Positions 15,036 through 34,288 of a DNA stretch of 38,794 bases are shown piece after piece. The notes under the pieces are model-generated. The model was not told the origin of the DNA, did no database searches, and worked only from the letters and a program-made list of their open reading frames with translations. Source of the DNA: Alphaproteobacteria bacterium (GTDB lineage: Bacteria > Pseudomonadota > Alphaproteobacteria > Puniceispirillales > UBA1172); the NCBI GenBank assembly GCA_016778985.1, contig JADHOM010000018.1:1-38794 (forward strand), in the 5' to 3' direction. A program made the translations under genes and the position numbers. Position 1 is the first letter of the stretch. Each line of letters begins with the position of its first letter.

Positions 15036-15428
15036 ATGCCCATTAAAACTATCGTCTGGTTTATTTGTCTGGGACTACATATTTATCAGAGCATGATACT
15101 TCGCGAGAATGGTATTTCTTCGACTTGGATTATTGCCGCTATCATGCTTGATCAAGGTTATTTTTTAACTACTGGCTCTGCGACTTTAGACACGTTATTA
15201 GAAATATTAATCTATGTTTTAGATGTGATTTTAGGGTTTATTTATAATCTTTGTGCTGTTCCCGCTGATATTATTGTCGCGATCATGGGTGATGATGTTG
15301 GCCAAATTCTATTTCGTATTGGCTTAGAAGCAGGGTCGTTTCAGATTGCGATGATCTATCTGATTATTCTGGTCATATCTTTCTTTCTGCCAGATGGGAA
15401 CAGGCAAAGCCGGTATGATGATGAGTAA
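15036..15428 (+). CDS. Small integral membrane protein of unknown function
   Basis: 130-residue protein with about three hydrophobic segments: an N-terminal helix (TIVWFICLGLHIY), a central stretch (LEILIYVLDVILGFIYNLC) and a C-terminal helix (IAMIYLIILVISFFLP), ending in a polar RQSRYDDE tail. I recognise no family. It is the first gene of a two-gene unit, 18 bases before the Tat-exported protein, and opens the 20-gene envelope cluster, so an inner-membrane role next to an exported partner is the simplest reading. Confidence 0.7.
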   Translation: MPIKTIVWFICLGLHIYQSMILRENGISSTWIIAAIMLDQGYFLTTGSATLDTLLEILIYVLDVILGFIYNLCAVPADIIVAIMGDDVGQILFRIGLEAGSFQIAMIYLIILVISFFLPDGNRQSRYDDE

Positions 15429-15446
15429 AATATTAGGTATTACTTC

Positions 15447-16718
15447 ATGAAAAGACGTCACTTTATAGCTGGTGCCAGTAGTGGGATGACAGTTGCCTCT
15501 CTCTCCAAACTTGGTTGGATCACACCTGCTCTTGCACGCCTGCGTCAGCCTGTTACTTGGGGTGGGGCATATCTGCAATCGGATTCTATGCCCATGCCGG
15601 TTCTTAATCAAGCCATGATCATGCGCAATACAGACAACCAGAATATTAATCAAGTATTGTTGGAAACAATTCGCGGAATAAACTGGGCTGAAACAAATAT
15701 TGATCTCGCGGCAGCTATTGATCAAGATGTTTCCACAACAACTGAATACGGCATGGTATTGGTATTTGTCGCTGAACAATCGCTAGGGCAAGTGTATTTT
15801 CCAGATAACCAAGAGACGCTTTATATCGCCCGACTAGTTGGCTACAATATGGTTTATAATATTGCAAAGCGCAAAATTATTGCCAATTTCGGTATTCGCG
15901 GCAGATATTATCATGCTCTCCCTGGAAAACCTAATAATGCGGCTTTGCCGGAGATTTATTTTGACCTTATCACAAATCAGCATCGTGAGGGTAGTATTGC
16001 AAAATCTATGACCGAAGAAATATCACAATATCCATTTAGCAATAGATATGGCGGCAAGCAGTTCAAAGTGACGTCAGTTCAGGCGAAGCCTCTGGTCGCA
16101 TCTGCTGTTAAAAAAATAGATATGGATGCAGATTTCTTTCGCGAACAGATTGGCTATCTGGCGACAGTATGCTTTTCTGAAAAAACGGCTGTTCCGGTTA
16201 TTCCTTACACAAAAACGGCGGCGCTCAATAAAAATCTTGTCCAAGAGATGCGGATCACCGCTTTTGATGGCAATAGTGCATTAAACACCTCGCTGCCCTT
16301 ACCTGATCCGGAAATTGGCATTAATGTCATTCTTGATGGTTGGAATTTTAGCGAAACGCCGGTATCAGATCAACGCAATCAAGTCAGCTTAACCTTATCG
16401 CTAACCGTTACATTTGAAAAACAGAATAATGGTGAGGTCATATTTTCTCAGCAGTTCTTTGCCCAGAAAGATTTTTATGAGATTCCGCTTGCAAAATATG
16501 CTCTTTCAAGAGATGCGCGTGTTTATATCCTCCACGAAGAATGTATTGACCATATTTTTGCTGGCATTAGTGACGCGACGATCCGGTCAGCCCTTTATGA
16601 AGGAATTGAGCTAAAAACCCAAAGTGAGGCAACATTTGTACAAGCCGTCACAGATGATAAAAAGACCTATAATAATGAATATGAGAGCATTTCAGAATAT
16701 TTGCCGTATTCGATGTAA
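15447..16718 (+). CDS. Tat-exported protein of unknown function
   Basis: 423 residues. The N-terminus MKRRHFIAGASSGMTVASLS has a twin-arginine motif (RRHFIAG) followed by a hydrophobic stretch ending in ALA at about residue 30, so Tat export is likely. The mature protein is mixed alpha/beta; segments such as YNMVYNIAKRKIIANFGIRGRY and SLTLSLTVTFEKQNNGEVIF resemble the beta-strands of TolB/CsgG-type secreted domains, but similarity is too weak for a family claim. No cofactor motif is visible to explain Tat use. Operon partner of the small membrane protein; a strong bidirectional terminator follows. Confidence 0.75.
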   Translation: MKRRHFIAGASSGMTVASLSKLGWITPALARLRQPVTWGGAYLQSDSMPMPVLNQAMIMRNTDNQNINQVLLETIRGINWAETNIDLAAAIDQDVSTTTEYGMVLVFVAEQSLGQVYFPDNQETLYIARLVGYNMVYNIAKRKIIANFGIRGRYYHALPGKPNNAALPEIYFDLITNQHREGSIAKSMTEEISQYPFSNRYGGKQFKVTSVQAKPLVASAVKKIDMDADFFREQIGYLATVCFSEKTAVPVIPYTKTAALNKNLVQEMRITAFDGNSALNTSLPLPDPEIGINVILDGWNFSETPVSDQRNQVSLTLSLTVTFEKQNNGEVIFSQQFFAQKDFYEIPLAKYALSRDARVYILHEECIDHIFAGISDATIRSALYEGIELKTQSEATFVQAVTDDKKTYNNEYESISEYLPYSM

Positions 16719-18293: not shown

Positions 18294-19082
18294 TTAATTA
18301 CTTTTAAGAGATGTTGTAAAATAAGCGTCTATGGCTTGATCTAATCGGGCTTGATATTCTGCTTGCAACCATTGATCCAATATCGCTGAATGATCTAACT
18401 TTTCATCTAGCGCAAAGGCTTCATCATATTGTTTTTGTTTAATATAAGCTAATGCAAGATAGGCTTTGGCGTCTGAAGTGTAATTCTCATTTATATAATT
18501 TTGCATCCGTGACTGTAAGTTATCATAAGCCGCATTATCATAAAGCTGACGCGCAATCATCATCTCTGCCCGCGCTAAAATAGCGGGACTTACATCATAA
18601 AAATCGATACTGATATTGTCAGAAGCGGCCTTGCATATACTAATAATTGCACCATCATCAGTGCGTTTATAGGTTGTCGTTTGAGCATCCTTTACCTGCC
18701 CTGAGCTTTGCCACATGCTTAACACGGTTTTAATCAGTCGATTATCATCGGTTTTGGCAATTAGGCTCATCCTGACCTGCTCAGCTTCAGGGGCCATCAG
18801 GCGTGATCGACACAGCTGTTCAGCCGCTTGTGACATATTGATTTGGGTTTTAATTGGCACGGCAATGATGGCATATCTAATGGCATCTTTTTCAACAAAA
18901 ATATACGCCTTATCCTGCCCTATCGGCGCTATTGTCTGCTCAGCAAACAACATTGCCAAGCCATCATTATCAGCGATTAGATTAGTAATCGCCGTTTTGG
19001 CAGAGGTAATATCACTCGCGGCGATAGGCCTGACCATCAATAAAATAATAGCCAGCCCTATCAGGAAAAAACGCTGCCACAT
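18294..19082 (-). CDS. Exported protein of unknown function with C-terminal helical repeats
   Basis: 262 residues with a Sec signal peptide (hydrophobic run ending RPIAAS). The N-terminal half is mixed alpha/beta with two Cys (QLCRSR; SICKAA) that could pair. The C-terminal third (MIARQLYDNAAYDNLQSRMQ..., DAKAYLALAYIKQKQYDEAFAL) has the look of TPR helices. No family recognised. Its ATG lies two bases after the stop of the 442-residue gene with no clear Shine-Dalgarno sequence, so it is probably translated by coupling. Confidence 0.72.
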   Translation of the reverse strand: MWQRFFLIGLAIILLMVRPIAASDITSAKTAITNLIADNDGLAMLFAEQTIAPIGQDKAYIFVEKDAIRYAIIAVPIKTQINMSQAAEQLCRSRLMAPEAEQVRMSLIAKTDDNRLIKTVLSMWQSSGQVKDAQTTTYKRTDDGAIISICKAASDNISIDFYDVSPAILARAEMMIARQLYDNAAYDNLQSRMQNYINENYTSDAKAYLALAYIKQKQYDEAFALDEKLDHSAILDQWLQAEYQARLDQAIDAYFTTSLKSN

Positions 19083-19084
19083 GA

Positions 19085-20413
19085 TCAGAAATCGTTACTA
19101 TCCGATACCTGACCGCTTGGGCCTTGAGGGTTTACCCCATTATCCGAAACACCGCCATCCATTGTCATGGTCGAGCTATTATTTGACGATGAGATTGATG
19201 GTGCTAGTGGTGCTTTATCAATAGCATTAATGGCATTATTGTTTTCTATGGCGGTGCCTTGGGCAATGGCTTGGGCGGATTGCGAATAGACGGCGATAGA
19301 AAAATACCAGTTGCCGTCAGCAGAGATAAAACCCTTGGTCTGCACGCCTTCAGGCAATTGGCCACCTGCAATGGATTGATAGTTGTTATTCATGCTAATG
19401 GTATTTAGAAAGCTCTGGCGTTCCTGGTCATACACTTCTGGATCACCATAATTACCTTGATCATCGACAGGGATGGTGAACTGCTCGACTTGTTCAATCT
19501 GGCTTTCATCAAAGCCGCCTTGCCAATACACATCATCACCACGCAGAAAAGCGATAAGCGCATTACGGGCACGCATGCCCGATTGATCACGCGATAATTT
19601 CTTCAATTTTTTTGCGACCGTGCTATTGCTGTTCTTGCGTATAATAGAACTGCCAAAACCGATGACAATTTGCTCACCAGTCTGTGGATGCGTGATTAGC
19701 TTTGCGCCCATTGGCGGCGTTGCATAATTCATAATCTCATTCATAACATGCGAGAAAGCGGCGTTAGGATCAGTGGTGCTAATAACCGCTGGATTTAAGC
19801 GCAGAAATGCATTCCGCGTTTTAGTGCTTGTCGCAATAGAGATTGAGACTTCACGATCATTAACATTGTCATTAACATCATAAACCACGTAAGCGGCAAG
19901 CATTCCTGATACCGCTTCGCCGCATATTTCATTTGAATTGCGGCTAGTATTGGCAGCCCCCTCTACGCCGCTATCAATGGCAACCAGATCACTTTCAAGA
20001 ACATTACTACACGTATTCTGGATAGGCTGAATATTAGCAATGAGCTGTTTTTTGGCTTCCATATATGCCTCAGCATAAGCCCCACGCTTTGACAATAAGG
20101 TGGCATTAGGATTTTCATAAATGGTATAAGAGGCGCTAGCACTGGAAATCGTGCCAAGCCCGGTTTTTGTTGAAACGATGCGAATACCGCCATCATCTTC
20201 TATCATATCATTGGCGTAATTCATGCCGTCCTGCATAGTATCAGCATGGACAGTATCTCCATCAACAATAGCACCGCGGACAGACGTATCACCGCCTTGC
20301 ACGGGTGGGATAAAATCGTTCAGGTCAATAGATTGGGCTTGCGCCGGCACGATACCAAGACTTAATGGCAGCAGACAGGCTGACAGTAAATAGCGATACA
20401 TTCTAGTTGTCAT
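19085..20413 (-). CDS. Exported LPP20/CsgG-like protein
   Basis: 442 residues with a Sec signal peptide ending VPAQAQS. Two helical stretches of the kind found in LPP20/FlgP-like domains are visible (LLSKRGAYAEAYMEAKKQLIA, and MRARNALIAFLRGDDVYW), each followed by beta-rich sequence. The last 60 residues are Ser/Asn/Asp-rich and probably disordered. No cysteine lipobox, so it should be periplasmic or surface-exposed rather than lipidated. The FlgT-like gene directly upstream ends in GAG GAG TAA, whose codons form the ribosome site of this gene. Similarity is by pattern only. Confidence 0.7.
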   Translation of the reverse strand: MTTRMYRYLLSACLLPLSLGIVPAQAQSIDLNDFIPPVQGGDTSVRGAIVDGDTVHADTMQDGMNYANDMIEDDGGIRIVSTKTGLGTISSASASYTIYENPNATLLSKRGAYAEAYMEAKKQLIANIQPIQNTCSNVLESDLVAIDSGVEGAANTSRNSNEICGEAVSGMLAAYVVYDVNDNVNDREVSISIATSTKTRNAFLRLNPAVISTTDPNAAFSHVMNEIMNYATPPMGAKLITHPQTGEQIVIGFGSSIIRKNSNSTVAKKLKKLSRDQSGMRARNALIAFLRGDDVYWQGGFDESQIEQVEQFTIPVDDQGNYGDPEVYDQERQSFLNTISMNNNYQSIAGGQLPEGVQTKGFISADGNWYFSIAVYSQSAQAIAQGTAIENNNAINAIDKAPLAPSISSSNNSSTMTMDGGVSDNGVNPQGPSGQVSDSNDF

Positions 20414-20416
20414 AGT

Positions 20417-21742
20417 TTACTCCTCAAAAAAATTACTTTTTTGATCCTCTATTTTTGCCTTAGCATCATTCATTTTTTGGTCAGCGTCTGCTGCTTCAGC
20501 CAGAGGATCAGGATAAATAGGCCGCAATAATAAAGCTGCTTCTGCATTGATATTCATATCTAATGCGATAATTTCTGCCATTGATTGTTTTGACTGAACA
20601 TCGGTAATACGCACCTTGCCAATGGTTGTTTCCTTGCGCCCAATACTTTCTTTCGTATAAGGGTCTGCTAACCGCTCACCCAATATTACCAGATGATATT
20701 CGCCAGCTAGTTTCATGGTCTCACCGCCCTGACCAATCGTTAGCGATTTACCATTAATAGCAACAACACGCGCCGGATAAATGGCGTTGCTTATAAACTG
20801 TCCCAAGTGAAAGGAGACATGCTCATCAAGGGCGGTTTCCGCTGGGTTAACTTGAAAACTTCGGCTTTTTGCATATTTAATTTGTGAGGTAGCAACATCA
20901 ACAATCCGAACGGAGACTTCGGCAATATCTCTAACCTCACGCTTGATGGTTGTCGTGCCTAATAACTGGCGATCATTAATCACTCTACCATGCTGGTAAA
21001 CCGTCAGAATAACCAGATAATCACTGCCAACTCTTTGCCCTAAGCGAGCCAGTTCAGCTGTCGCCATGCCGCCACCCGCAATCAGATTAAGCTCATCTTG
21101 TGTATCTGCGAGCATTTGCCGATCTAGCATGGCAAAACGGCGTGTTTGTGTCAGGTAATCTTCCACCTTGCGGCGAAGTGATCTGGCAAATCTAATCGCT
21201 TCAGGATCAGCGGCAATGCTATTATCCAAATACGGATCAATGACAGACATGCGGAGCCTGTTAAGTTGCTTTGAGGCCGCATACTTAGCGACTTTAACCT
21301 TTAAGACCACCTCAATATAATTATCAAAATCAGGTCGCAGGCGCGAGGAGACAATCTCAAAGCTTTCAATCTGCCCAGATGTGGCCGTGGCGATATCTTC
21401 TATAAACTCTGATGATGACGCAAACTCTGAATATTGGTCTGTGTCGATGACCTGTGTCGAGAGCCTAGAGATCGTCTGTGCAGATATGTCCATCCCGTTT
21501 ATCTGACCAATGGCAATTTTAAGACCATCCAGAATTGCATCACGTTGCGTAGGGCCTAGCCCCTCTGCCCTCACCTCAACCAGCTTTATGCTAGCTGATG
21601 CCTGAGGCAGTAAAACAGCCATAGTTAGAGCAACGGCGATAACGGAAACAGGCAGTTTTGTTATGCCGCCACGCCTCACTAAAACCCTATACATGATGGC
21701 AAAAAAGCGGGCAGTAATAATATCAAAGACACGTATCATCAT
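20417..21742 (-). CDS. FlgT-like three-domain secreted protein (TolB/CsgG superfamily)
   Basis: 441 residues; start ATG 21742 (AAGGA ahead; an upstream TTG is less likely). A long N-region precedes a hydrophobic helix ending PQASAS. The mature protein follows the plan of Vibrio FlgT: an N-terminal alpha/beta domain (VRAEGLGPTQRDAILDGLKI... SGQIESFEIVS... YIEVVLKVKVAKY), a TolB/CsgG-like middle domain (RRFAMLDRQMLAD, LGQRVGSDYLVILTVY, VSVRIVDVATSQIKYAKS), and a C-terminal SH3-like beta domain (INGKSLTIGQG, YHLVILGERLADPYTKES, IGKVRITDVQSKQSMAEI). FlgT builds an outer ring around the flagellar motor, but no flagellar genes occur here. Second gene of the operon. Confidence 0.72.
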   Translation of the reverse strand: MMIRVFDIITARFFAIMYRVLVRRGGITKLPVSVIAVALTMAVLLPQASASIKLVEVRAEGLGPTQRDAILDGLKIAIGQINGMDISAQTISRLSTQVIDTDQYSEFASSSEFIEDIATATSGQIESFEIVSSRLRPDFDNYIEVVLKVKVAKYAASKQLNRLRMSVIDPYLDNSIAADPEAIRFARSLRRKVEDYLTQTRRFAMLDRQMLADTQDELNLIAGGGMATAELARLGQRVGSDYLVILTVYQHGRVINDRQLLGTTTIKREVRDIAEVSVRIVDVATSQIKYAKSRSFQVNPAETALDEHVSFHLGQFISNAIYPARVVAINGKSLTIGQGGETMKLAGEYHLVILGERLADPYTKESIGRKETTIGKVRITDVQSKQSMAEIIALDMNINAEAALLLRPIYPDPLAEAADADQKMNDAKAKIEDQKSNFFEE

Positions 21743-21765
21743 TGATTTCCTTCTCAAAAGGCGTT

Positions 21766-22926
21766 CTACCTAATGCCATTCGCATCAAGAACATTCGCCA
21801 ATTCAATAGCGGTTTTCGTGCCAACATTAGCAATAGCGTTTCGGATAGCGGTAGCTTCATCACTGCCACCATCGTTCTGCTGGACAGGGCCAAATGCAGC
21901 AATTGTGAAAGGGATACCATCACGCAGGTCTATAATCTCACCAGTGACAGATACAGCAACCGAATACCCACTAACCGTCGATGGTTTTGGGATGCCAATA
22001 TCAATGGTTCCGATAGCCATCAGTTCCATCCGGCAGTCCAAGGCGGCGGTTTCAACAGAAATCAAATTTTCCATCGACATAACCCCGTTCATGGCAATAT
22101 CTTTTTCAATATCACGAGGGTTAACGCCGCCACATCTGGCCGCGACATAATCATATTGTGTTGGCCGGAAATTATTTTGGGTCAGCCCTTGTTTTATGCT
22201 CACGCCAAAAACAGCATTAATCTTATCATTTACTGATATCTGGGTCGTGCCCAAGGTTGAAACATTGCCGCCAGTGGTAACGCTTCCCGATGACTTTGAT
22301 TGGGTCATGCTCTCGGTAAGTGTGCTTTCAACTGTATTCGTTCCATCCGATTGATAAGTATTGTCCAAGGTATTTAATGACTTGGTAGAGCTCCTGTCAT
22401 CAACGGAAGGAGCAAAGGCTTGCAAGGTGCTATTTTGCTGATATGTTGCCTGACTGGTCGTGAACAGCCACATCATGCGAATACCGCGGCCGCCAACTGT
22501 CCCCGCCTGCTGTGCGAATAATGCATCAACTAGGTTAGTTTTAACGCGGATAACAATTCTTCCATCAAGGACATTCTTTTTACTTTTGTTTGGGTTATGC
22601 TCAAAACCAACGACAGATACATATTTAGCCAAGTCCATCACAATCATATCTTTTTTGGCCAAATATTGCTGTAATCTGCCCGGGTTCATACAGCCGGAAA
22701 CATATTCCTCCCACGCCGCTTTAATCGCCATTTGCTGTAATTCAGCGATATCCTCATCCTGAGGCTTTGTCGATAAAAACTTAGGTGTGTATTTCATAGA
22801 TACTTCCGCAGATGCTTCTGTGATACTGCCACAAGTCGCATCACTTGCCGCGGTGTTGACATAACACATACTTATGAAAGCCGCCGATATGACTATATAT
22901 AAACGTGATAGGGATATATGCTGCAT
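21766..22926 (-). CDS. Exported TolB/FlgT-like protein, first full gene of the operon
   Basis: 386 residues with a Sec signal peptide (ends near VNTAAS). An N-terminal alpha/beta domain (MAIKAAWEEYVSGCM... VLDGRIVIRVKTNLVDALFAQ) is followed by a Ser/Thr/Asn/Gln-rich linker (about 160-225) and a C-terminal domain with the TolB/CsgG-like pattern GYSVAVSVTGEIIDLRDG then ATAIRNAIANVGTKTAIELANVL. Four Cys in the mature part suggest disulfides. AGAGG precedes the ATG. It may be coupled to a 19-codon leader ORF. Function unknown; one of a group of related secreted folds in the cluster. Confidence 0.72.
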   Translation of the reverse strand: MQHISLSRLYIVISAAFISMCYVNTAASDATCGSITEASAEVSMKYTPKFLSTKPQDEDIAELQQMAIKAAWEEYVSGCMNPGRLQQYLAKKDMIVMDLAKYVSVVGFEHNPNKSKKNVLDGRIVIRVKTNLVDALFAQQAGTVGGRGIRMMWLFTTSQATYQQNSTLQAFAPSVDDRSSTKSLNTLDNTYQSDGTNTVESTLTESMTQSKSSGSVTTGGNVSTLGTTQISVNDKINAVFGVSIKQGLTQNNFRPTQYDYVAARCGGVNPRDIEKDIAMNGVMSMENLISVETAALDCRMELMAIGTIDIGIPKPSTVSGYSVAVSVTGEIIDLRDGIPFTIAAFGPVQQNDGGSDEATAIRNAIANVGTKTAIELANVLDANGIR

Positions 22927-22985: not shown

Positions 22986-23071
22986 TAACTCCTATAATAA
23001 ATTAGTTAATACTTATAAACTTCAATTGTTTGGATTAAATTAAAAGCCAAACACCTGTTAAGGAATTGAAA
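22986..23071. promoter_or_regulatory. Divergent promoter region at the centre of the envelope cluster
   Basis: Very AT-rich DNA separating two operons of exported proteins. A perfect TATAAT at 22993-22998 on the plus strand would give a leader of about 65 bases, but no good -35 lies 16-18 bases upstream. AAGGA at 23060-23064 is the ribosome site of the plus-strand gene. TTAA words occur here but not with CtrA spacing. Confidence 0.45.
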
Positions 23072-23893
23072 ATGAAAACGTTTATTATTGGATTGTTAGG
23101 AAGTATATTTCTTAGCCTTAGCCATGCACAAGCTTTAGACAGTATTTTACTTGCCCCTGCAAGCACAAAAAACATGCCAGTTCAACGTCTTCATTATGAA
23201 TTTGAAGCAGCGTTACTGGATATTGGCGTTAGTGTAAAAAGCAGAATGTTTATCGAAAATGAATTAGAGCAGTCGTTAAACAATACCAGCATTACAGATA
23301 TTATAAAAATAGCTCGGCCCTATGCTGTGAGCATGCCCGACCATCTGATCCTAGTTCAGGTTGGATTGATCGAAAACAACTCCCCTTACCCTGACCCGTA
23401 TCTGAAAGCCATAGACATGAAAACGGGTGAAATTGTTGCCCAATCCACAACATTGCCCTTGCTGGATGCTAATTCAAATAGCATTGCCGCCGCCGCCGCT
23501 GCTCTGGCACGAAGCCTGGAAAAACGTCTAGATAAGGCGGGGTATGAAATGCATATCTCAGACATTAAACCGTGGGGCGGCAAGGCGCATCTGCTAAGGC
23601 TTTCTTTTGAAGGGTTTGATGGCTGTGAGCAAGAAGCCGCCATTCAGATTATTGAAGATGAGTTTCCTGGTATCGTCAATATTGACCTAGAAAAAGCACC
23701 AAATCATAACTATGCGATTTATCAAGTTAATACCACTGCCCAAACTCAACGCATCCGCAAATGGCTTCAGCTAATGATGGTGGAAACAGGATTACGACTT
23801 GGCACGGATTACAATATTTACGTTAATAATCAGACTATTAGAATCAAGAAGCCTGATGTAGTTGAAACATTCTGGTTTCAATGTGGCTTTTAA
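23072..23893 (+). CDS. Exported TolB/CsgG-like protein, paralog 1
   Basis: 273 residues. The ATG at 23072 is chosen because AAGGA lies seven bases ahead; an in-frame TTG two codons earlier sits too close. Sec signal peptide ends near HAQA. The N-terminal domain (DSILLAPASTKNMPVQRLHYEFEAAL, DHLILVQVGLIEN, LKAIDMKTGEIVAQST, AAAAAALARSLEKRL) has the TolB-like layout in which a shallow alpha/beta fold ends in a helix. The C-terminal domain (LLRLSFEGFDGCEQEAAIQII, DEFPGIVNI, TQRIRKWLQLMMVETGL) also occurs in the next protein. Function unknown. First gene of the plus-strand operon, 28 bases before its paralog. Confidence 0.72.
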   Translation: MKTFIIGLLGSIFLSLSHAQALDSILLAPASTKNMPVQRLHYEFEAALLDIGVSVKSRMFIENELEQSLNNTSITDIIKIARPYAVSMPDHLILVQVGLIENNSPYPDPYLKAIDMKTGEIVAQSTTLPLLDANSNSIAAAAAALARSLEKRLDKAGYEMHISDIKPWGGKAHLLRLSFEGFDGCEQEAAIQIIEDEFPGIVNIDLEKAPNHNYAIYQVNTTAQTQRIRKWLQLMMVETGLRLGTDYNIYVNNQTIRIKKPDVVETFWFQCGF

Positions 23894-23921
23894 CACTGAT
23901 CTGAAGAGATAAGGTATAAAC

Positions 23922-24824
23922 ATGTCTATTCATTCATTTTCAAAGTCTTTATTGGCCATAGCCCTGATCATCATGGCAACATTTTCAGCGATGAGCCATA
24001 CGGCGTTAGCAAATAGCCTTGTTGTGTTTTCCGAAACCCCAGCAAGCTATCCTTGGGTCAGCCAAAAAGCCACCGACATCATGGCATCACGGTTTAGCAA
24101 AGCTGGATATATGGTGACTGACAAAACCAGCGTCTTAACCAAGATTGGTCAGCCCCTAAATGCTAATCGCCAAGCCATCCTTGAGGCCTCCTCAGCGATC
24201 AGGGCGACCATTGGCAACGGGTTCATCATTTTTGTTGATTATGAAGAATGGATTGAACCGAATAGCCGTCAGCTATCCATGCGCCTAGCCGCCCAAATCT
24301 ATACGACCAGCAATGGCTTTGTTGCGAACTGGGTTGAACCTAGCCAAGTCATCCTCATGCCAGAGAATTGCAATCAGATTTGTCTAGATGGGCTGCTATT
24401 GCCTGAACTAGAGGCACAGGCAGATAGTCTGGCTAGCAACATTATCCAGGTATTAAAACGCCCAACCGGATCAACGGCCGGATCATCAGATGGTGAGGCA
24501 ATACCAATTCAGATTTTTAAAGTGGAAATGATTGATCTTGATAACGAAGAAATGCTTGAGCTGATGGATTTAATGGAACATGAATTCCCTGGCTTTATTG
24601 CAATTACCCAAACCGAGTCGAGGGCGCCAAGGCTCCGCTTTTCCTATCACACCACGGTATCAGCACAAAAGCTGAATGAATGGCTACGGGTTAGCCTGAT
24701 GGAAATAGGCATTGATCCAGATGATGATGCAGCGCTGCAAGTCCAATCCGATTTCATCAGCATTAAACGCTATGACAGCATTGAAAGTCGCGGTAGTGCT
24801 GGCAACACGCTTAAATTCAATTAA
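23922..24824 (+). CDS. Exported TolB/CsgG-like protein, paralog 2
   Basis: 300 residues with a Sec signal peptide ending HTALANS. It repeats the plan of the preceding protein: TolB-like N-domain (SLVVFSETPASYPWVSQKATDIM, GFIIFVDYEEW, LAAQIYTTSNGFVANWVEPS, LEAQADSLASNIIQVL) and a C-terminal domain with VEMIDLDNEEMLELMDLME, HEFPGFIAI, AQKLNEWLRVSLMEIGI. The shared pattern E.EFPG...WL...+.E.G shows tandem duplication followed by strong divergence. One likely disulfide (ENCNQICLDG). AAGG precedes the ATG. Function unknown. Confidence 0.72.
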   Translation: MSIHSFSKSLLAIALIIMATFSAMSHTALANSLVVFSETPASYPWVSQKATDIMASRFSKAGYMVTDKTSVLTKIGQPLNANRQAILEASSAIRATIGNGFIIFVDYEEWIEPNSRQLSMRLAAQIYTTSNGFVANWVEPSQVILMPENCNQICLDGLLLPELEAQADSLASNIIQVLKRPTGSTAGSSDGEAIPIQIFKVEMIDLDNEEMLELMDLMEHEFPGFIAITQTESRAPRLRFSYHTTVSAQKLNEWLRVSLMEIGIDPDDDAALQVQSDFISIKRYDSIESRGSAGNTLKFN

Positions 24825-24914
24825 ATCGTCGGGTTAAGCATCATTTTATGAAAAAATAGGTCAGATTTTCCCATTTAACATATGAACACATCATATTGTT
24901 AGACGGAGTGATTG

Positions 24915-25310
24915 ATGATTTCAGATGATGCCAACCCCCTTGCCGAAGTTGCCTTTGCGCTAGCCATGGCGTTTTTCAGTCTTATGGTTTTGATGCTCTT
25001 CGCCATTGTTCATCAGCCTGAAGCGGTAGCGCCGGATAGTATTGCGGTATCGTCATCCGTCTCAGCAGAGATACCTGAACAAACACAACCGCAATTTCTG
25101 CTGTTTCATCCAAATGGATATTTTGATGAAAATCTGGCCAGTGTTAACCCAGAAACCCTCGATCCATCGCGACCAGTGTTATTAGCTGTTGAAGATAGCA
25201 TCGCCATATCAGATGTCATGGCATTCAAACAATCATATGCCAATTTAGATATTCAGATATCAGCACTGCCTAGTGAGTTAGCAGCTGTTCTGTCAGCCAA
25301 ACGTAATTAG
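24915..25310 (+). CDS. ExbD/TolR-like membrane protein
   Basis: 131 residues. The start is the ATG at 24915 (GGAG six bases ahead). One N-terminal membrane helix, PLAEVAFALAMAFFSLMVLM, lines up with the ExbD/TolR helix pattern PLIDVMLVLLIIFM, and the essential proton-carrying Asp is replaced by Glu11. The periplasmic part has the ExbD-type order FLLFHPNGYFDE (beta, dG), RPVLLAVEDSIAISDVMAFKQ (strand then helix), NLDIQISAL. ExbD/TolR proteins pair with ExbB/TolQ to convert proton flow into force; the candidate partner is the 31764-32327 gene. Identity is by pattern, with low raw similarity. Confidence 0.65.
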   Translation: MISDDANPLAEVAFALAMAFFSLMVLMLFAIVHQPEAVAPDSIAVSSSVSAEIPEQTQPQFLLFHPNGYFDENLASVNPETLDPSRPVLLAVEDSIAISDVMAFKQSYANLDIQISALPSELAAVLSAKRN

Positions 25311-25344
25311 TTAGCAATAATGAGAAATGAATGAGGAATTAATT

Positions 25345-26154
25345 ATGCTTATAACTAAACCCCATCACCCTATCAGTCATTCCCGCATCCCCCATTACCC
25401 TATCTCGCGTTTCACCATGATGATAGCCGCACTAAGCTTGCTGATAGGCGCCATTATAACCGTGCTTCCATCATCAGCATCAGCATCACGCTTGGATCAG
25501 AGCGATCAGATTAAAGCCATGATTATTCAAGAAGCCTTAAAATCAAGATATGTCTCCCCCAGCCTGGCCTTAGCGGTGGCCGAAACAGAATCCAGTTTCC
25601 GCCCGCATGTCGTCAGTCATAAAGGCGCCATTGGTGTAATGCAAATCATGCCGGCTACCGCCAAAGGCGTGTTTTCTGTTCATCCAGACAGGCTATATCA
25701 ACCGCGGCTGAACATTCAGCTTGGCATTAGATTTTTAGACGATCTGATCGCCACCTATGATGGCCGTATTGATCTGGCACTGTCACATTATAATGGCGGC
25801 TCACGAGTAACACACACTAATCCTCCTAGCATTATTCCCAGCACCAGAGGATATGTTCTAAAAGTGTTGAGCCGTGCCCAACATTATCAAAGCAAATGGC
25901 GCCATATGATGCGGGATGAACCTGCCCTGCCACAGCTGGTATCACTAGTGACGGTATCTAATGCGCCATATGATCAGAATAGCCAATATCTATGGCAGAA
26001 TGAGATTAAGGATATTGATTTCTGGCTTACCAGGAAAGATGCCAGAGCCGTCCACAAGCCGATTACTTCCCATTCCTCGTATAGCCAGCAATTAGTAACA
26101 AAGATGCAACAGAACCGGACGCGCGTCAGCCAGTGGATTAAACAGAACTCTTAG
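25345..26154 (+). CDS. Soluble lytic murein transglycosylase (SLT domain)
   Basis: 269 residues; the ATG at 25345 follows GAGGAATTAATT, while an in-frame ATG at 25327 would overlap this site. One N-terminal hydrophobic helix (about 24-41) exports or anchors it. The SLT domain (PF01464) is complete: LALAVAETESSFRP with catalytic Glu82, GAIGVMQIMPATAK, LNIQLGIRFLDDLIATYDGRIDLALSHYNGG. Such enzymes cleave glycan strands of peptidoglycan, often to let a trans-envelope machine pass the wall. The 100-residue C-terminal extension is unassigned. It sits in the operon between the ExbD-like and cytoplasmic genes. Confidence 0.9.
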   Translation: MLITKPHHPISHSRIPHYPISRFTMMIAALSLLIGAIITVLPSSASASRLDQSDQIKAMIIQEALKSRYVSPSLALAVAETESSFRPHVVSHKGAIGVMQIMPATAKGVFSVHPDRLYQPRLNIQLGIRFLDDLIATYDGRIDLALSHYNGGSRVTHTNPPSIIPSTRGYVLKVLSRAQHYQSKWRHMMRDEPALPQLVSLVTVSNAPYDQNSQYLWQNEIKDIDFWLTRKDARAVHKPITSHSSYSQQLVTKMQQNRTRVSQWIKQNS

Positions 26155-26329: not shown

Positions 26330-28027
26330 ATGAATGATCCAGAGACTATTTTATCTTCTTGGGCGGAGTTTAGGCTTAACCCACCTTCGCATTATCTGCT
26401 GAATTGTTTGCGAAACATTCATGATGCCACTGATATACAAGGTGAGCCTATATTCTCACCACGAGTTGCAACATTAATTACAACAATGATTGCGTCTAGA
26501 TCATATGGCCCAGAGCTGTATCGGCTATGCGGATTTATGGCCGCAGCATCAGCCTCTGGCATCAATTTTGGTGAGCTTTTACTTGGCGGTAGAGCAACAT
26601 CCGCACGCGTAAACAAGCTGTTTGATCAAGCACAAATAGCGGATGATATAAACATATCAGATCGAAATATTATTCTGACTTCACACAGCCCATCCTATCA
26701 AATTGATAAGGCGCGCAGCCCTGTTATCATTGGCTTGGCTAACTTTATCTGTGACGCACTGGGATTTGATATCTTAGTTAAGATATATGAACGTCTAGGC
26801 AAAGACACCTCATCTGACGCTATTAAAACCACATCAAATGATCTATCGAAACACATATATAGGTTCCTTGGTGAGCATTTGCCGCGAAGCTCTGAGAGGA
26901 AAATCAGTATTCTTCTGCAAGATTACCTGCTGGCTGAGCTTGACGATAATAGCACGATAACCGCAAGCGATGTTGATGATCAGATTATCCTTAATTTCTG
27001 GCTTGAAAAAAGCCTTGATCCTGAGCTAAGCCTCAAGCTCTATGATACTTGCTTGAAGGCATGGATGAGCTTTCGCCAAGGGTTAGATTTAGCTAGCCAA
27101 TCTGCAGCCAATGCAGACAGTCTAGGTGAGGCAGAGTATCGCCTAGATAAGCTGGTGATGAGCTATTTTGATGACCCCGAGATTGATATCAGCATTGCTG
27201 ATTATCGCCCGCCAATTATCCAAAGCAGCGATACATTAATCACTGAAGACCGGTGCAATTTACAATCCGCTTTTCATGAAATCAGCAAACCGCCGCTTGA
27301 TAGCATTAAAATGCTCAATAATGGTGAGAAGGATAAGATTAGCCTGTTGGTGCATGCTGATACGCATGCAACCACCCTGCGCCACTCTATTTTACGAGGG
27401 GCTGTATTTTCCCAAGCCCAGAACCGGATCACCCAAGCCTTGCGCGATCAGCCGCAAGCACAGCCTAATATTATCAGCATGATGCCTGATATTGAGGATG
27501 CCGCTTACTCACATTGGCTCACAGAATGGCGAGATATTCTTACGGTTGCTGACGGCACACTCAAAACCGCCTGCCAGCGGCTTTTAGAAGCGCAACATTT
27601 CGAAGGTTTGGCAATATTGGTGCGGCTATTATCTGATGAAGCCAAACGAGAGCTATCCAGTTTAATGCAAGATGCTGCGACAGCACACAAAGCATCTGAT
27701 CAAACCGCGCAAACTGTTTTTGCCGCCTTGGATCAAAGCAAAGCCAAATTGGCGCTTAAAGGCGAATTAGCAGAGATAAAAACAACGGCACGCGGCTTTC
27801 GCCGTGCAGGGTTAAAATCCGCACCAGCCGCCATCAATGACCCTGAAATATGGCATGATTATCTTGCCAGGGCAGCAAAGTTAACAGAGGTAATTATCAC
27901 GGCTATTGAGCGTTTTATTGAGGCGATTTCCACTACTAATGAGCTGGACGCCTTGTTCCGCCAAGATCATAAAATATTTGCCGATCAATTTTCGCTTATT
28001 TACCATTCAGAGGGTTATCATGAGTAA
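26330..28027 (+). CDS. Large cytoplasmic helical protein of unknown function
   Basis: 565 residues from the ATG at 26330; the frame stays open back to an ATG at 26159 (622 residues). I prefer 26330 because 26155-26329 is AT-rich and poor in protein-like codons, but neither start has a strong ribosome site. No signal peptide or membrane helix. The protein is almost all helical; the C-terminal third (LRHSILRGAVFSQAQNRI..., ALDQSKAKLALKGELAEIKTTARGFRRAGL) has amphipathic helices. No nucleotide-binding motif seen. Its stop overlaps the next start by eight bases, so it is coupled to the 181-residue protein and then to the Lon-like membrane protein. Confidence 0.65.
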   Translation: MNDPETILSSWAEFRLNPPSHYLLNCLRNIHDATDIQGEPIFSPRVATLITTMIASRSYGPELYRLCGFMAAASASGINFGELLLGGRATSARVNKLFDQAQIADDINISDRNIILTSHSPSYQIDKARSPVIIGLANFICDALGFDILVKIYERLGKDTSSDAIKTTSNDLSKHIYRFLGEHLPRSSERKISILLQDYLLAELDDNSTITASDVDDQIILNFWLEKSLDPELSLKLYDTCLKAWMSFRQGLDLASQSAANADSLGEAEYRLDKLVMSYFDDPEIDISIADYRPPIIQSSDTLITEDRCNLQSAFHEISKPPLDSIKMLNNGEKDKISLLVHADTHATTLRHSILRGAVFSQAQNRITQALRDQPQAQPNIISMMPDIEDAAYSHWLTEWRDILTVADGTLKTACQRLLEAQHFEGLAILVRLLSDEAKRELSSLMQDAATAHKASDQTAQTVFAALDQSKAKLALKGELAEIKTTARGFRRAGLKSAPAAINDPEIWHDYLARAAKLTEVIITAIERFIEAISTTNELDALFRQDHKIFADQFSLIYHSEGYHE

Positions 28028-28565
28028 GGAAAACAAAGCTATACTATCCGATGCTGTTATTCTATTTGATAAAATCACGGATGTGCGACTCATGCATGAT
28101 CAGGTTAATGCAACGGCGTCTGAAGGGTTTGACCTCTATCGCTTATGGCAAATTGCTGACGGGTTAGTTGGTGATGATATGCTCCATCAAATATCCCAAA
28201 ACTTTACCGCAAGACGGCAGTTCAAGGCGATCTTGGCACAAAAAGCGCAAGCCTTCCAGCCGCAGCAAGCCGCTGCCTCAAGTGACAGCAATCATCGACA
28301 TGGGGATCAATTTGACGTCCAGATAATGCCCTCAGCTTCACAAGATGGACTAGTCTATGTGCAGTTAATTTTTCATCAAGGTCAAGCCCATCAAAAGACA
28401 TCCGCTGAGATGCTCATTTCACATTGTAATGGTGTATTTCGTCAGAAACCCCTGACGTCACCATTGACGTCTTCACAAGATCAGCGCATACAAATTCTAT
28501 TGCATCATGATGATCCCATGCTAGCCGATTTAAGAAATCCAGAGACGGAACTTTATATCAAGTGA
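28020..28565 (+). CDS. Small cytoplasmic protein of unknown function
   Basis: 181 residues. The start at 28020 overlaps the upstream gene by eight bases and is preceded by GAGGG. An N-terminal helical part (MSKENKAILSDAVILFDKITDVRLMHDQV) is followed by a polar linker rich in Gln/Ala/Ser (about 78-92) and a C-terminal beta-rich domain (FDVQIMPSASQDGLVYVQLIF ... IQILLHHDDPML). No known family. Its TGA overlaps the GTG start of the next gene (GTGA), so these three cytoplasmic-facing proteins are made together, which suggests direct contact. Confidence 0.68.
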   Translation: MSKENKAILSDAVILFDKITDVRLMHDQVNATASEGFDLYRLWQIADGLVGDDMLHQISQNFTARRQFKAILAQKAQAFQPQQAAASSDSNHRHGDQFDVQIMPSASQDGLVYVQLIFHQGQAHQKTSAEMLISHCNGVFRQKPLTSPLTSSQDQRIQILLHHDDPMLADLRNPETELYIK

Positions 28566-29935
28566 CACGCATATTTATACCGACAACACAATATCCGGTA
28601 GAAATTATCTCTCTTACCGAAGAACATTCGGATATTCAGTCTGTTATCTGTATAACCAACACCTTTAATGCATTGCCAGTCAGCGCGGCGTATCATGCCT
28701 TTATCAGGCGGCCAACAGGTATCATTGAAAGAATTACTGGCATCCCGTCCTTTCGTGCTGATGTTAGCGGCCCTATTGATCAAGGCGACAGTTGGCAGTT
28801 AGCCATGCTAATCGCTCATCGACTCCACCATAAAAATGGGTTTAGCCAAAATGATAATTATGACCTGCCCTTCATATGGGCTAGTGGGCAGGTTGATATC
28901 AATCAGACGGTATTACCAATCCACCATATTCGAGAGAAGCTGCTAGCTAGCAAGCCTCTATTTGAGGAGATTAATAGTCGTGGTGGTCAGCTGCATATTG
29001 CATTACACCCTGATAATATGGCAGATGCCACCGACATCATACCCAACTATGCGATTTGTCATCCGCTAGCGCAGGAAGCCGATATTAATCAACTGCTGTC
29101 AAGCATGCTGCTTCAGCATCACCAGAATGAGTCACAAAATCAAATAGATCATATGGAAAGCGCAGAGCAATCTGCCGACACCCCAAAGCGCCGCCAGGCA
29201 AATAGCATTTTTTCTCTAACTAATATACTTAGTCCGTTCTGCAATAAAGGCTGGAAGCGCCTGATCGCCGGCTATGGGCTTGTGACGATACTGTTATTTA
29301 CACTGCAGCAAATGATCCCTTGGCATCCCATTCACGCCGCTATGGAAATGGAAAAATCAGGTGAGCATGTAAAGTTGATCCGAATGTTAAAATCGTATCG
29401 ACAAGATGATAACATTATCGCACGCCTTAGCTTTCTCTATTTTGAAGAAGCCTATTTGCAACAAAAGTCTGATCAGCTGATTGCACAGATTGATATGCAA
29501 TTAGTCTGGGCGGTAGCGAATGATAACGCATCTTCATGTGAAAATGATCAAATGCGCTGGCACCGCTATACCATTACTGATGCCAATTTGCCGTCACTAC
29601 CACAACAACGATGCCATTTATATCTTGAGATACAGAACAGAGGCGACAACAGGTTAGCGCTGGCGGTTGCTATTAATGTTAATGATAGCGGTCAGATCAT
29701 CCCATTATTACAGCCTGCGCAAACACAATTAGCGCCAACCGAACATATCCGTCATCCCATCCATTTAGCTGAACAAAAACCATTTATGATTTTGGTTTCA
29801 TCTTCTGATCACATGACGACAAGCTGGTATCGCTGGTTCAAACGCTGGGCTAATCGACCAGCTGCCCTGACAGCTAAAAAATCGCTCAAAGATACGGGCA
29901 TAGGGGTTCATATGGCGGCGCAAGATAAAACTTAA
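28562..29935 (+). CDS. Inner-membrane protein with Lon-like and DUF4384-like domains
   Basis: 457 residues, GTG start inside the preceding stop. Residues about 15-190 resemble the proteolytic domain of Lon (S16): GPIDQGDSWQLAMLIAHRL lines up with Lon PKDGPSAGIAMATAL (Ser77 at the nucleophile) and IWASGQVDINQTVLPIHHI then REKLLAS with Lon MTGEI...GRVLPIGGIKEKLLAA (Lys126 at the catalytic lysine). There is no AAA+ domain. A single membrane helix (about 233-252) follows, then a periplasmic part; residues 351-417 (LYLEIQNRGDNRLALAVAIN, SGQIIPLLQP) look like a DUF4384-type beta domain. Whether the protease fold is active is unknown, since one residue is inserted before Ser. Last gene of the operon. 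Confidence 0.65.
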   Translation: MTRIFIPTTQYPVEIISLTEEHSDIQSVICITNTFNALPVSAAYHAFIRRPTGIIERITGIPSFRADVSGPIDQGDSWQLAMLIAHRLHHKNGFSQNDNYDLPFIWASGQVDINQTVLPIHHIREKLLASKPLFEEINSRGGQLHIALHPDNMADATDIIPNYAICHPLAQEADINQLLSSMLLQHHQNESQNQIDHMESAEQSADTPKRRQANSIFSLTNILSPFCNKGWKRLIAGYGLVTILLFTLQQMIPWHPIHAAMEMEKSGEHVKLIRMLKSYRQDDNIIARLSFLYFEEAYLQQKSDQLIAQIDMQLVWAVANDNASSCENDQMRWHRYTITDANLPSLPQQRCHLYLEIQNRGDNRLALAVAINVNDSGQIIPLLQPAQTQLAPTEHIRHPIHLAEQKPFMILVSSSDHMTTSWYRWFKRWANRPAALTAKKSLKDTGIGVHMAAQDKT

Positions 29936-29950
29936 TCTTATTATTGCCTC

Positions 29951-31069
29951 TCACAGACAGCGGCCAGTCGATTGATCAGAAAGCATGACATTTGCCGAAA
30001 TTGTGCTGCCATTAATATTAATCTGGCTGAGCAATAATTTACCTTTATTAATCGAATAGGTAGCCTTAATCCGGCCTTCTAGCTTAGGCGTTCCTGCCGC
30101 TGACATGATGCCGCCAATGATATAACTATCACCGATTTTGGTGAAAAGTCGCAGTGGCGTACCCTGCCCTAGGCGCGCTCTCAGCGTTCCGATAGCATCA
30201 GCTTCTGCCGTATCTGCGGGGGTCTGGCTAAGCCGTGAATATGGCGAATAAAGATTGCGATTAGCGCGCTCGATAGCTTGATTGCGAATATGGTATACGG
30301 TTTGATCGGGGGTTAAATAGGCCGCCGTCATGCCAAAGCATTGGCGTAAAATCTGAGCAATTTTTTCTCGCTCGGTTGCACTTTGTGGCCAAAATAACTC
30401 TAACTCTAACCTATCATTAGTTTGATCTAAATGCTGCATCGCCATGCGATGCGATTGAAAGTCAGCAGTGATGATAGCAGAGTCATTTGCCGCCGTGGGC
30501 GACGCCGCAGATGATGGCTTCGGCTCATCCATATGAACAGATGTAATCTCAATCGGCGTCAATGACTTTTTTTGAGGCTGAGTTTGAGGGTTTATGACTG
30601 GCTTTATTTCAGGCTTTATTTCAGGCTTTATTGTTGGCTCTATTGTGAGTGATGGCTCTGATGGCGTTAGTTGCGTTAGTAACACCAAGGGCGTCACCGC
30701 TACCTCAACAGCAACCGCCTCAGACGCAATGACAGGTTTAAGGTCAGCTAGATTATCAACTAATGGTTTAAGATCACCTGGTTTAGCTGATGGCATTGCT
30801 GATGAAGAGGCATCCTCTTGTCCAAGATTGATATTTACATGATCAGGAAAATCAACAAAAGCCATATTATCTTTATGGTAATCAAGCAGATCGGCATGAT
30901 TATATTTAGTTTCAGCCGGCTGATCTAACTGATCACTTTGGTCAGATTTGGCAGCAGTAGCGGCTTCTGATATCTGTTGCTGTTGGATCAGCTGGTCTTG
31001 CTCATGCGGTTCAATCCAAATGAATATCATGAACCCAATGACAGAAATGACAGAAGCTGACCGCCACAT
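29951..31069 (-). CDS. TonB-like-topology envelope protein
   Basis: 372 residues. AGGAG seven bases ahead fixes the ATG at 31069; a GTG two codons earlier overlaps the upstream stop but is too near that site. One N-terminal membrane helix (SVISVIGFMIFIWI) is followed by a long acidic/polar linker and a proline-rich spacer (about 140-170, with IKPEIKPEIKPVINPQ), then a folded periplasmic domain of about 150 residues (LELELFWPQSATEREKIAQIL ... GKLLLSQININGS). The plan matches TonB/TolA, but the C-terminal domain does not show the TonB signature. It ends the minus-strand operon holding the ExbB-like gene and is convergent with the Lon-like gene (15 bases). Confidence 0.68.
   Translation of the reverse strand: MWRSASVISVIGFMIFIWIEPHEQDQLIQQQQISEAATAAKSDQSDQLDQPAETKYNHADLLDYHKDNMAFVDFPDHVNINLGQEDASSSAMPSAKPGDLKPLVDNLADLKPVIASEAVAVEVAVTPLVLLTQLTPSEPSLTIEPTIKPEIKPEIKPVINPQTQPQKKSLTPIEITSVHMDEPKPSSAASPTAANDSAIITADFQSHRMAMQHLDQTNDRLELELFWPQSATEREKIAQILRQCFGMTAAYLTPDQTVYHIRNQAIERANRNLYSPYSRLSQTPADTAEADAIGTLRARLGQGTPLRLFTKIGDSYIIGGIMSAAGTPKLEGRIKATYSINKGKLLLSQININGSTISANVMLSDQSTGRCL
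30600..30647. repeat. Four 12-base units encoding the Pro-rich spacer
   Basis: GGCTTTATTTCA at 30600-30611 and 30612-30623, then GGCTTTATTGTT and GGCTCTATTGTG. On the minus strand they encode the EPTIKPEIKPEIKP part of the TonB-like protein. Spacer length may vary between strains through unequal copies. Confidence 0.85.
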
Positions 31070-31071
31070 AA

Positions 31072-31761
31072 TCACACTCCTGACCGTTCTAAATAAAAGA
31101 CCTGCATGTCAATCATCAACTTACTCAGATCATTAATTCTCTCATTCGGGCTCATATATTGAAGCTCGACACTCGGAACAGATGGGTTTAGATCAGGCGC
31201 AACCTGATTGGTCTGATCGGCCTCAACAATAGCATTGAAAGCATTGGCAATATCAGCATCAGTCACTGGCGCAACATTGCTTTTATTCGCTGTATTGGAA
31301 GCTACAATCTGCTCATTATCCTGTTCTATATTAAGGCCTGAAATGGTGTTTAGCTCAACCTCTGGCACTGGCGCTGCAACATGTTCAAGTGAGGGTGTTG
31401 ATTGTTGTCCACCATCCATCTGAACGCTCGATGACGACGTAACCGGAGCTGCCGCATCCGCCATAGCTAGTTTTGTCAGGATTTCAATATTCGTTGTCAG
31501 GTCTGCTATATCAGATTTCAATACCCTGATCTTATCTTCAAGTTTAGCAACATCCTGAGTGGGCGCAGCAGGGAAGGTTGAAGCGGTTTGATCAATCGTT
31601 TCTTTGCCATCCATCATCACATCATCAATCTGGGCAACCACAGTCTTTGACGTCCCTGTGATCCATCCTGATATCCAGGTTGAAAATGATTGATCAGGTG
31701 AGGCCGTAAACAAATAGCCAAGAGCCGCTAGAACGCTGATATTAAAAATAAGAAAACGCAT
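31072..31761 (-). CDS. Membrane-anchored coiled-coil protein of unknown function
   Basis: 229 residues. An N-terminal helix (FLIFNISVLAALGYLFTA) anchors it; a coiled coil follows (VAKLEDKIRVLKSDIADLTTNIEILTKLA, 71-99), then about 100 residues of low-complexity Ser/Pro/Val/Asn sequence and a short helical C-terminus (NERINDLSKLMIDMQVFYLE). The plan suits a periplasm-spanning spacer protein. AGGAG precedes the ATG, two bases after the ExbB-like stop; its own stop overlaps the region of the TonB-like start. No family recognised. Confidence 0.68.
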   Translation of the reverse strand: MRFLIFNISVLAALGYLFTASPDQSFSTWISGWITGTSKTVVAQIDDVMMDGKETIDQTASTFPAAPTQDVAKLEDKIRVLKSDIADLTTNIEILTKLAMADAAAPVTSSSSVQMDGGQQSTPSLEHVAAPVPEVELNTISGLNIEQDNEQIVASNTANKSNVAPVTDADIANAFNAIVEADQTNQVAPDLNPSVPSVELQYMSPNERINDLSKLMIDMQVFYLERSGV

Positions 31762-31763
31762 GA

Positions 31764-32327
31764 TTATTCTCCTGCGATTATGTGTTGGGAATGAGGGGCA
31801 GGCTTATCGCTGTTCATGGTTGTTGTATTGATCAGGATAAGCATGGTGCGTAGAACCGCAGATAGCGGCAGCCCAATCACTGAGGTCATGAATGCCATGC
31901 TAAAGTGATTGGTCAGATCAGCAATGATATCATTGACAGTGTCGGGAGTCAGGCCACCATTTGATAGTGAGCCAATACCAAGCGATATGCCCAGCAAGGT
32001 AAAGGTTAGCGCAATAGTCGCAATACCATTACAGGCCTGAAGTCCGCTGAGCATCCATTTACGGCGGTAAGCATCAATATTATCTGTGGCAACCTGACCT
32101 TTGGTTTCAAATATCTTCAGACTGCTGAACACACTGACAAAAACTAATAGCATCGTCAGCGTGATAAAGCCGAAGCCAAGAACATCAATCGACCATGTAA
32201 AGATATCTGTTGCCGCAAGATCATTTGATAATGACAGCCCTGCCATGAGGATCACTACTGATCCCAGCATGACGCTTAGGGCACGCCCGCCTATTCCGAT
32301 ATTGTCACTGAATGACGTCCAGTTCAT
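31764..32327 (-). CDS. ExbB/TolQ/MotA-like proton-channel protein
   Basis: 187 residues with four predicted membrane helices (about 16-32, 48-68, 97-120, 143-167). The last two carry the ExbB/TolQ/MotA core: CNGIATIALTFTLLGISLGIG, then AFMTSVIGLPLSAVLRTM, comparable with IATTAPLLGLLGTVIGI and ALYATAIGL..AIPA of ExbB; polar Thr104 and Thr148 sit at the channel positions. Four helices with a very short cytoplasmic loop (69-95) recall a reduced MotA rather than three-helix ExbB. Its ATG overlaps the stop of the preceding gene (ATGA). The partner is most likely the ExbD-like protein encoded at 24915-25310. Confidence 0.75.
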   Translation of the reverse strand: MNWTSFSDNIGIGGRALSVMLGSVVILMAGLSLSNDLAATDIFTWSIDVLGFGFITLTMLLVFVSVFSSLKIFETKGQVATDNIDAYRRKWMLSGLQACNGIATIALTFTLLGISLGIGSLSNGGLTPDTVNDIIADLTNHFSMAFMTSVIGLPLSAVLRTMLILINTTTMNSDKPAPHSQHIIAGE

Positions 32328-32704
32328 CTGCCAACCCTCGCCACCAGCAAGTCACTTGTCGAAAGACCAACGGTTTCTGCCCAATGTTGAGTTATCATTT
32401 GGTTCTTTTCAGCTGCCGCATGACTAAGAAAGGTCAGCTCATAGCTATTGAATGCACGCAATGCCGCCGCTGGAGCAGATGATTTCAGCGATTTGTCATT
32501 GATAACAATCTTTTCAAGATCGGTCAGACGCCGCCAAGATGACATCATATATTCTGACCGCTGCGGGATAGAAATATCTCCATCTAGCATCTTGGAAATA
32601 GCAATGGCGCGTTCGCGTTCAAGATTGTCTAGTGAGTTTGCCATTGCTGGCATCGCTGTTACTAGCGAAACTAAAGTGGCAGATAATGCAAGTAAACGTT
32701 TCAT
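32324..32704 (-). CDS. Small exported protein of unknown function
   Basis: 126 residues with a Sec signal peptide (ends AMPAMA). The mature part of about 103 residues is mostly helical and has no Cys; ISIPQRSEYMMSSWRRLTDLEKIVINDK is the best-structured stretch. No family recognised. GAGGAG six bases ahead of the ATG, and its stop overlaps the ExbB-like start (ATGA), so a stoichiometric periplasmic accessory of the channel is plausible. Confidence 0.7.
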   Translation of the reverse strand: MKRLLALSATLVSLVTAMPAMANSLDNLERERAIAISKMLDGDISIPQRSEYMMSSWRRLTDLEKIVINDKSLKSSAPAAALRAFNSYELTFLSHAAAEKNQMITQHWAETVGLSTSDLLVARVGR

Positions 32705-33600: not shown

Positions 33601-33640
33601 AACCTTATCTCCTTGAAGACCGATAAAAACGGTATGACAA

Positions 33641-34192: not shown

Positions 34193-34288
34193 AGTTTTCC
34201 TCACAGAAAATGGGTTCTGAAAAGGATATGAAAGCTTTTGGGAAATTTTTGCTAAATATCTCTAAATGAATATTTTTTGAGCCAGCAT

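Follow-up and report, generated by a model that had tools for sequence, protein, structure and literature searches.

FlgT is a protein of the flagellar H-ring, the ring around the flagellar motor of Vibrio, and published accounts treat it as an accessory of flagellar motors. The FlgT of Rhodobacter sphaeroides forms a ring and binds both MotB and FliL (PMC7277832), which sets a precedent for a FlgT-type protein holding an ion-driven unit. A search of the open-licence literature found no description of a non-flagellar FlgT or of the gene cluster presented below.

We analyzed a stretch of 38,794 nucleotides (contig JADHOM010000018.1, here called the window) from a marine SAR116 bacterium, in which a FlgT-like protein, F446, is encoded in a cluster together with a MotA/ExbB-like membrane protein, Q187. 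The cluster resembles the Ton and Tol-Pal systems in that it combines a probable ion-driven unit with a bitopic, proline-rich protein (O374) whose globular domain would reach across the periplasm. It differs from them by an added transglycosylase, a FlgT-like ring module and the cytoplasmic proteins of the L, M and N genes, and it contains neither TolB/Pal nor a TonB receptor. The cluster brings to view a widespread gene set, the proteins of which mostly had no family match in the searches made here.

Gene organization

The F446 open reading frame encodes 446 amino acids and begins with a TTG codon at position 21757. The first-pass annotation had placed this end at 21742, which is an internal ATG rather than the start of the gene, while its other end, at 20417, was correct. 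Homologues with intact frames were found in 27 of the 136 genomes of the order, and F446 is therefore a real gene. Its nearest homologues belong to SAR116 and the Alphaproteobacteria, and sampling 289 genomes of the class added two clear ones, in the alphaproteobacteria G239 and G414, and three that were weak. Searches for relatives of F446 or Q187 in viral contigs, and for S317-type and Q187-type relatives on plasmids, found none. The protein has a Sec-type signal region in which hydrophobic residues 32-50 are followed by ASASIK. Two relatives lack the C domain, and in the genome G107 the gene is split into separate frames of 372 and 71 aa (L041:2019-3432), which reflects either decay or an assembly error.

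The cluster spans about 15.4-34.2 kb of the window and comprises 19 genes (Table 1), arranged as three successive blocks that run from B423 to G386, from H275 to N457 and from O374 to T187; ABC-transporter genes lie beyond it. This order is kept across SAR116 genomes as well as in G239 and G414. The absence of flagellar genes from the vicinity of F446, noted from the first inspection of the sequence, was upheld: there are none in the cluster, the neighbours match no FlgO or FlgP profile, and flagellar genes are not adjacent. E442, G386, H275 and I300 were each considered as relatives of FlgP, FlgO or FlgT and found unsupported, all scoring below 18% by profile. H275 and I300 are related to one another with a profile probability of 99.8%, and H275 of this pair (23066-24824 of the window) has a weak match to PepSY.

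Table 1. Genes of the F446 cluster and A130 in the window
Gene	Position	Strand	Description
A130	15036..15428	+	Small membrane protein; close relatives only (one, L040); membership uncertain
B423	15447..16718	+	Exported, RR signal-like N-terminus; conserved in cluster
C474	16818..18242	-	Sec-exported; conserved in cluster
D262	18294..19082	-	Sec-exported; weak TPR similarity; same operon
E442	19085..20413	-	Sec-exported; 3 bases downstream of F446
F446	20417..21757	-	FlgT-like three-domain periplasmic protein
G386	21766..22926	-	Sec-exported; just upstream of F446
H275	23066..23893	+	Exported; paralogue of I300
I300	23922..24824	+	Exported; paralogue of H275; relatives beside core in other classes
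J132	24912..25310	+	ExbD/MotB-like at motif level, single TM, invariant Glu12 (NPLAEVALAL); core gene
K275	25327..26154	+	SLT lytic transglycosylase (Pfam SLT 9.4e-24); core gene
L622	26159..28027	+	Probably cytoplasmic, as it lacks a clear signal peptide; no family match; core gene
M181	28020..28565	+	Small, cytoplasmic; start at MSKENK, approximate; core gene
N457	28562..29935	+	One TM (234-252) between a cytoplasmic and a periplasmic domain; core gene
O374	29951..31075	-	TonB-shaped, with an N-terminal TM, a Pro-rich linker and a C-terminal domain that is conserved; core gene
P229	31072..31761	-	N-terminal TM (conserved MRFLIFNISV) and coiled region; core gene
Q187	31764..32327	-	Probable four-TM MotA/TolQ/ExbB/ZorA-like channel protein; core gene
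R126	32324..32704	-	Small exported protein; core gene
S317	32725..33678	-	Exported, helical by sequence; core gene
T187	33641..34204	-	Lipoprotein, lipobox MTAC; core gene

Relationship of F446 to FlgT

For comparison we used a reference set of 21 authentic gammaproteobacterial FlgT proteins, several of them flanked by FlgO- and FlgP-type genes. Profile-profile alignment (hhalign) of the F446 family with this set covered 305-310 columns and all three domains at a probability of 96.2-96.6% (P 2e-9 to 5e-10), and the N, M and C parts of F446 each lay in register with the matching part of FlgT. Partial alignments gave 91% for the N and M parts together, 85% for M and C together and a weak 1.6% for C alone, while ten column-shuffled controls and all reversed ones remained at or below 0.3%. 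None of the other cluster families exceeded 18% against FlgT. A whole-genome search with the Pfam FlgT_M model returned nothing at E 1e-3, because that model is too narrow for the divergent F446 family.

The AlphaFold model of F446, built on a five-row alignment, is of low confidence (pLDDT 46), with values of 70-80 over most of the N domain. When it was searched with Foldseek, the FlgT crystal structure 3w1e ranked first (E 3.1e-6), followed by the LPHT ring entry 8z5n (2.7e-4). VIA-align superposed the N domain on FlgT with a Z of 8.4 and an rmsd of 2.6 A over 83 residues, and dodecin-like folds followed, lower, at 6-7. Since profile alignment, controls, Foldseek and VIA-align agree, the homology is well supported: F446 is, on strong evidence, a divergent homologue of FlgT. 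The order of an N-terminal domain, a TolB-like middle domain and a C-terminal domain, proposed in the first-pass annotation, is thus borne out by hhalign for all three domains, and the low-confidence model agrees with the likeness to the FlgT crystal structure, but the description of the C domain as SH3-like was not confirmed, this region having low pLDDT.

F446 is like the FlgT of Vibrio, Aeromonas, Shewanella and Rhodobacter (Fla1) in its three co-linear domains, the fold of its N domain and its Sec export, and it may also share a contact with an ion-driven unit. It differs in its low identity to these proteins (~13%), in its place in a non-flagellar cluster with no adjacent FlgO or FlgP, and in its fusions, seen in other genomes, to partners that FlgT lacks. 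The C domain shows a weak profile likeness (E 0.07) to the LysM protein in entry 6ve2, which we take to be TsaP; F446 differs from this part of the TsaP-PilQ system of type IV pili, with its LysM and FlgT-C-like domains, in having no LysM domain, and its cluster has no pilus genes. The two conserved cysteines of FlgT in Vibrio and Aeromonas (PMC4960245) have no counterpart in F446, which contains zero cysteines.

Motor-like components

Q187 has four hydrophobic segments, and the loop between TM2 and TM3 is very short. The ZorA (MotA/ExbB/TolQ) models of PADLOC were the best or nearly the best match for all five members of its family that were compared (best 4.4e-8), the match falling in the TM3-TM4 channel region. 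An alignment of the family (A2) had a MotA/TolQ/ExbB entry, 8vvn (E 0.006), as its sole PDB profile match, which was lost with a broader alignment (A5), and Pfam MotA_ExbB stayed below its curated cut-off, with E 0.041 for the best member. A structure search with a low-confidence AlphaFold model gave generic helix matches only. As a recognisable relative of TolQ or MotA in particular, Q187 was rejected, hhalign being not significant against narrow SAR116 sets of the two. From these sequence features Q187 is probably an ion-driven channel protein of the MotA/ExbB/ZorA kind; it is like these proteins in its transmembrane helices and its conserved small and polar channel residues, and it differs from them in having almost no cytoplasmic domain.

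J132 has a single transmembrane segment with an invariant glutamate, in the motif (N/A)(P/M)(L/T)EVALAL, where ExbD has an aspartate. It had no Pfam match to ExbD or MotB, and profile tests, including those against TolR, were not significant, so that its likeness to ExbD and MotB is suggested at the level of the motif only. With MotB, TolR, ExbD and ZorB it shares the single membrane segment bearing an acidic residue, and it differs from them by the exchange of Asp for Glu and by lacking a wall-binding domain of the OmpA type. Unlike the genes of MotA-MotB-type pairs, those of Q187 and J132 are not adjacent in the window. In another genome (G213) relatives of Q187 and J132 stand alone, side by side, on a contig of 6 kb (L120), an arrangement that would suit a minimal channel pair.

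Linkage of F446 to its neighbours

F446 and Q187 occur together in 23 SAR116 genomes, out of 27 that carry F446 and 28 that carry Q187 (odds ratio 120, P 2e-17). Four genomes have F446 alone and five have Q187 alone, several of these being draft genomes or cases at contig ends. The linkage of F446, away from flagellar genes, to a protein of the MotA/ExbB type, as first suggested, is therefore substantiated by conserved synteny, by this co-occurrence and by the ZorA/ExbB-type profile matches of Q187. The two proteins had been described as neighbours, and here the initial reading was right about the shared cluster and wrong about adjacency, as Q187 is encoded about 10 kb away. F446 homologues were not confined to the company of unrelated genes: all resolved carriers have the same neighbours, and there are fusions to relatives of both E442 and G386. 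At one locus (L037) F446 is fused to G386 in a protein of 856 aa, and in several other SAR116 genomes it forms the C-terminal part of fusions of 740-917 aa with an N-terminal u2 domain (hhalign 100%, P 1e-60). The u2 family occupies the position of E442, to which it has itself a weak similarity (25%). Because fusions join F446 both to G386 and to u2, the three proteins F446, E442 and G386 probably touch, and the fusions point to a single complex of F446 with E442- and G386-type proteins.

A possible trans-envelope machine

The reading that we favor, with somewhat more confidence than doubt, is that F446 serves as a periplasmic scaffold, probably a ring, in an uncharacterised ion-driven trans-envelope machine. 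F446, once exported to the periplasm, would build this scaffold with E442 and G386 beneath the outer membrane, and an ion-driven unit of the inner membrane, composed of Q187 and J132, would be received or held in place by it. Within the unit, Q187 would be a channel ring of the ExbB/MotA/ZorA kind and J132 an axle like ExbD or MotB, with its glutamate as the ion carrier, so that the flow of ions might turn or pull J132 along with the TonB-shaped O374, P229 and N457. The SLT enzyme K275 may open a gap in the wall through which O374, P229, N457 and J132 would pass, and the machine would then do work at the outer membrane, controlled from the cytoplasm by L622 and M181. The formation of a ring by F446, its contact with the Q187-J132 unit, the ion flow, the direction of the work and the cargo are all things that we infer. 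It counts against the machine that the SAR116 cluster encodes no FlgO, no FlgP and no partner that binds peptidoglycan in the manner of MotB, and that by profile neither E442 nor G386 can be recognised as an H-ring protein. The sub-threshold Pfam score of Q187, the motif-level case for J132, the low confidence of the AlphaFold models, the want of the FlgT cysteines in F446 and its absence from most lineages with the core genes weigh on the same side. If it is true, a FlgT homologue is tied by synteny and fusion to another ion-driven unit, and periplasmic rings would be exchangeable holders of motors.

F446 could instead serve the SAR116 flagellum as its FlgT, encoded apart from the other flagellar genes, with the whole cluster decorating or powering the flagellar motor. 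Such a remote flagellar role seems unlikely to us, and less likely than the trans-envelope machine. The flgOPT genes of Aeromonas lie outside its flagellar region (PMC4960245), for which reason location alone is an unsafe criterion, and in the genome of F446 itself FlgI and FliF are encoded on a different contig. FlgI or FliF was found in 24 of the 27 genomes with F446 and in 72 of the 109 without it (P 0.019), a mild excess that may be due to phylogeny. Those same 72 genomes, however, have flagellar genes without F446, and most flagellated SAR116 genomes lack it; the bond between F446 and Q187 is far tighter, and the cluster has no FlgO or FlgP. Moreover, two Gammaproteobacteria (G756 and G776) have the core genes of the cluster without F446 and a separate, true FlgT elsewhere, and G107, which is 91% complete and contains pieces of F446, gave no match to either FliF or FlgI. 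For three further genomes without FlgI (G131, G132 and G134) a lack of flagella was considered and ruled out, FliF being present in all three.

Rather improbable is a second alternative, that F446 is a generic periplasmic protein of the CsgG/LpoB/TolB-N type, a helper in peptidoglycan synthesis or of the curli kind, which forms no ring and resembles FlgT only through a domain superfamily. Pfam CsgG matches residues 201-300 of F446, the TolB-like part only, with 27.9 bits against a curated cut-off of 20.8, and among 21 members of the family tested CsgG and LpoB each match 15 and FlgT_M matches five (best 1.5e-5), so that the generic models match more members and score above FlgT_M. Such matches are as expected for a middle domain of the TolB-N type. 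The alignment to FlgT, on the other hand, extends in register over the N, M and C parts, and the structure search puts FlgT first by way of the N domain and not the TolB-like one. CsgG and LpoB need an N-terminal cysteine for lipidation, whereas F446, besides being free of cysteine, has no lipobox. A Zorya-type anti-phage role for the cluster, in which Q187 would act as ZorA and F446 would be incidental, is very improbable in spite of the PADLOC matches of the Q187 family, since Q187, at 187 aa, lacks the long ZorA tail, J132, L622 and N457 match no PADLOC defence model, and Zorya includes neither a lytic transglycosylase nor a set of exported proteins such as the eight or more found here.

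The core genes in other lineages

Eleven genes of the cluster (J, K, L, M, N, T, S, R, Q, P and O) form a core that recurs across Alpha- and Gammaproteobacteria without the FlgT module. A scan of 385 genomes of the class turned up Q187 relatives in 20, and Gammaproteobacteria have them too; most of these loci hold T, S, R, Q, P and O together with J, K, L, M and N. The FlgT-like module (F446, G386, C474 and B423) is limited to SAR116, G239, the cluster of which is without L, M and N, and one of two loci in G414. As it is missing from most lineages with the core, F446 is an accessory part. A second protein of the H-ring kind, u1 (L098:12197-13093), is FlgO-like (hhalign 90%) with a C-terminal PG_binding_1 peptidoglycan-binding domain; it adjoins J in 12 genomes, mostly without the FlgT module, and folds of the H-ring type thus occur twice with the core, a recurrence that speaks for the trans-envelope machine. 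We propose tentatively, and with slightly more doubt than confidence, that the core across Alpha- and Gammaproteobacteria represents an undescribed class of ion-driven machine, that SAR116 recruited a FlgT-type ring module to it, and that the H-ring and this machine would have a common ancestor or a common way to hold a motor in the periplasm.

In two Gammaproteobacteria the core cluster includes genes for a protein kinase and an FHA-domain protein, beside L622. In one of the two (L209:11124-13742) the N-terminal domain of N457 is fused to a Ser/Thr kinase (Pkinase) and TonB_C, and an FHA protein adjoins it. G414 has two copies of the core (L085; L103/L104), one with F446 and no J-N in view and the other with J, K, M and N, from which F446 is absent. 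In six genomes, proteins of a cluster designated u4 (L101:2172-3731), including one with a caspase domain (Peptidase_C14), are encoded near the core.
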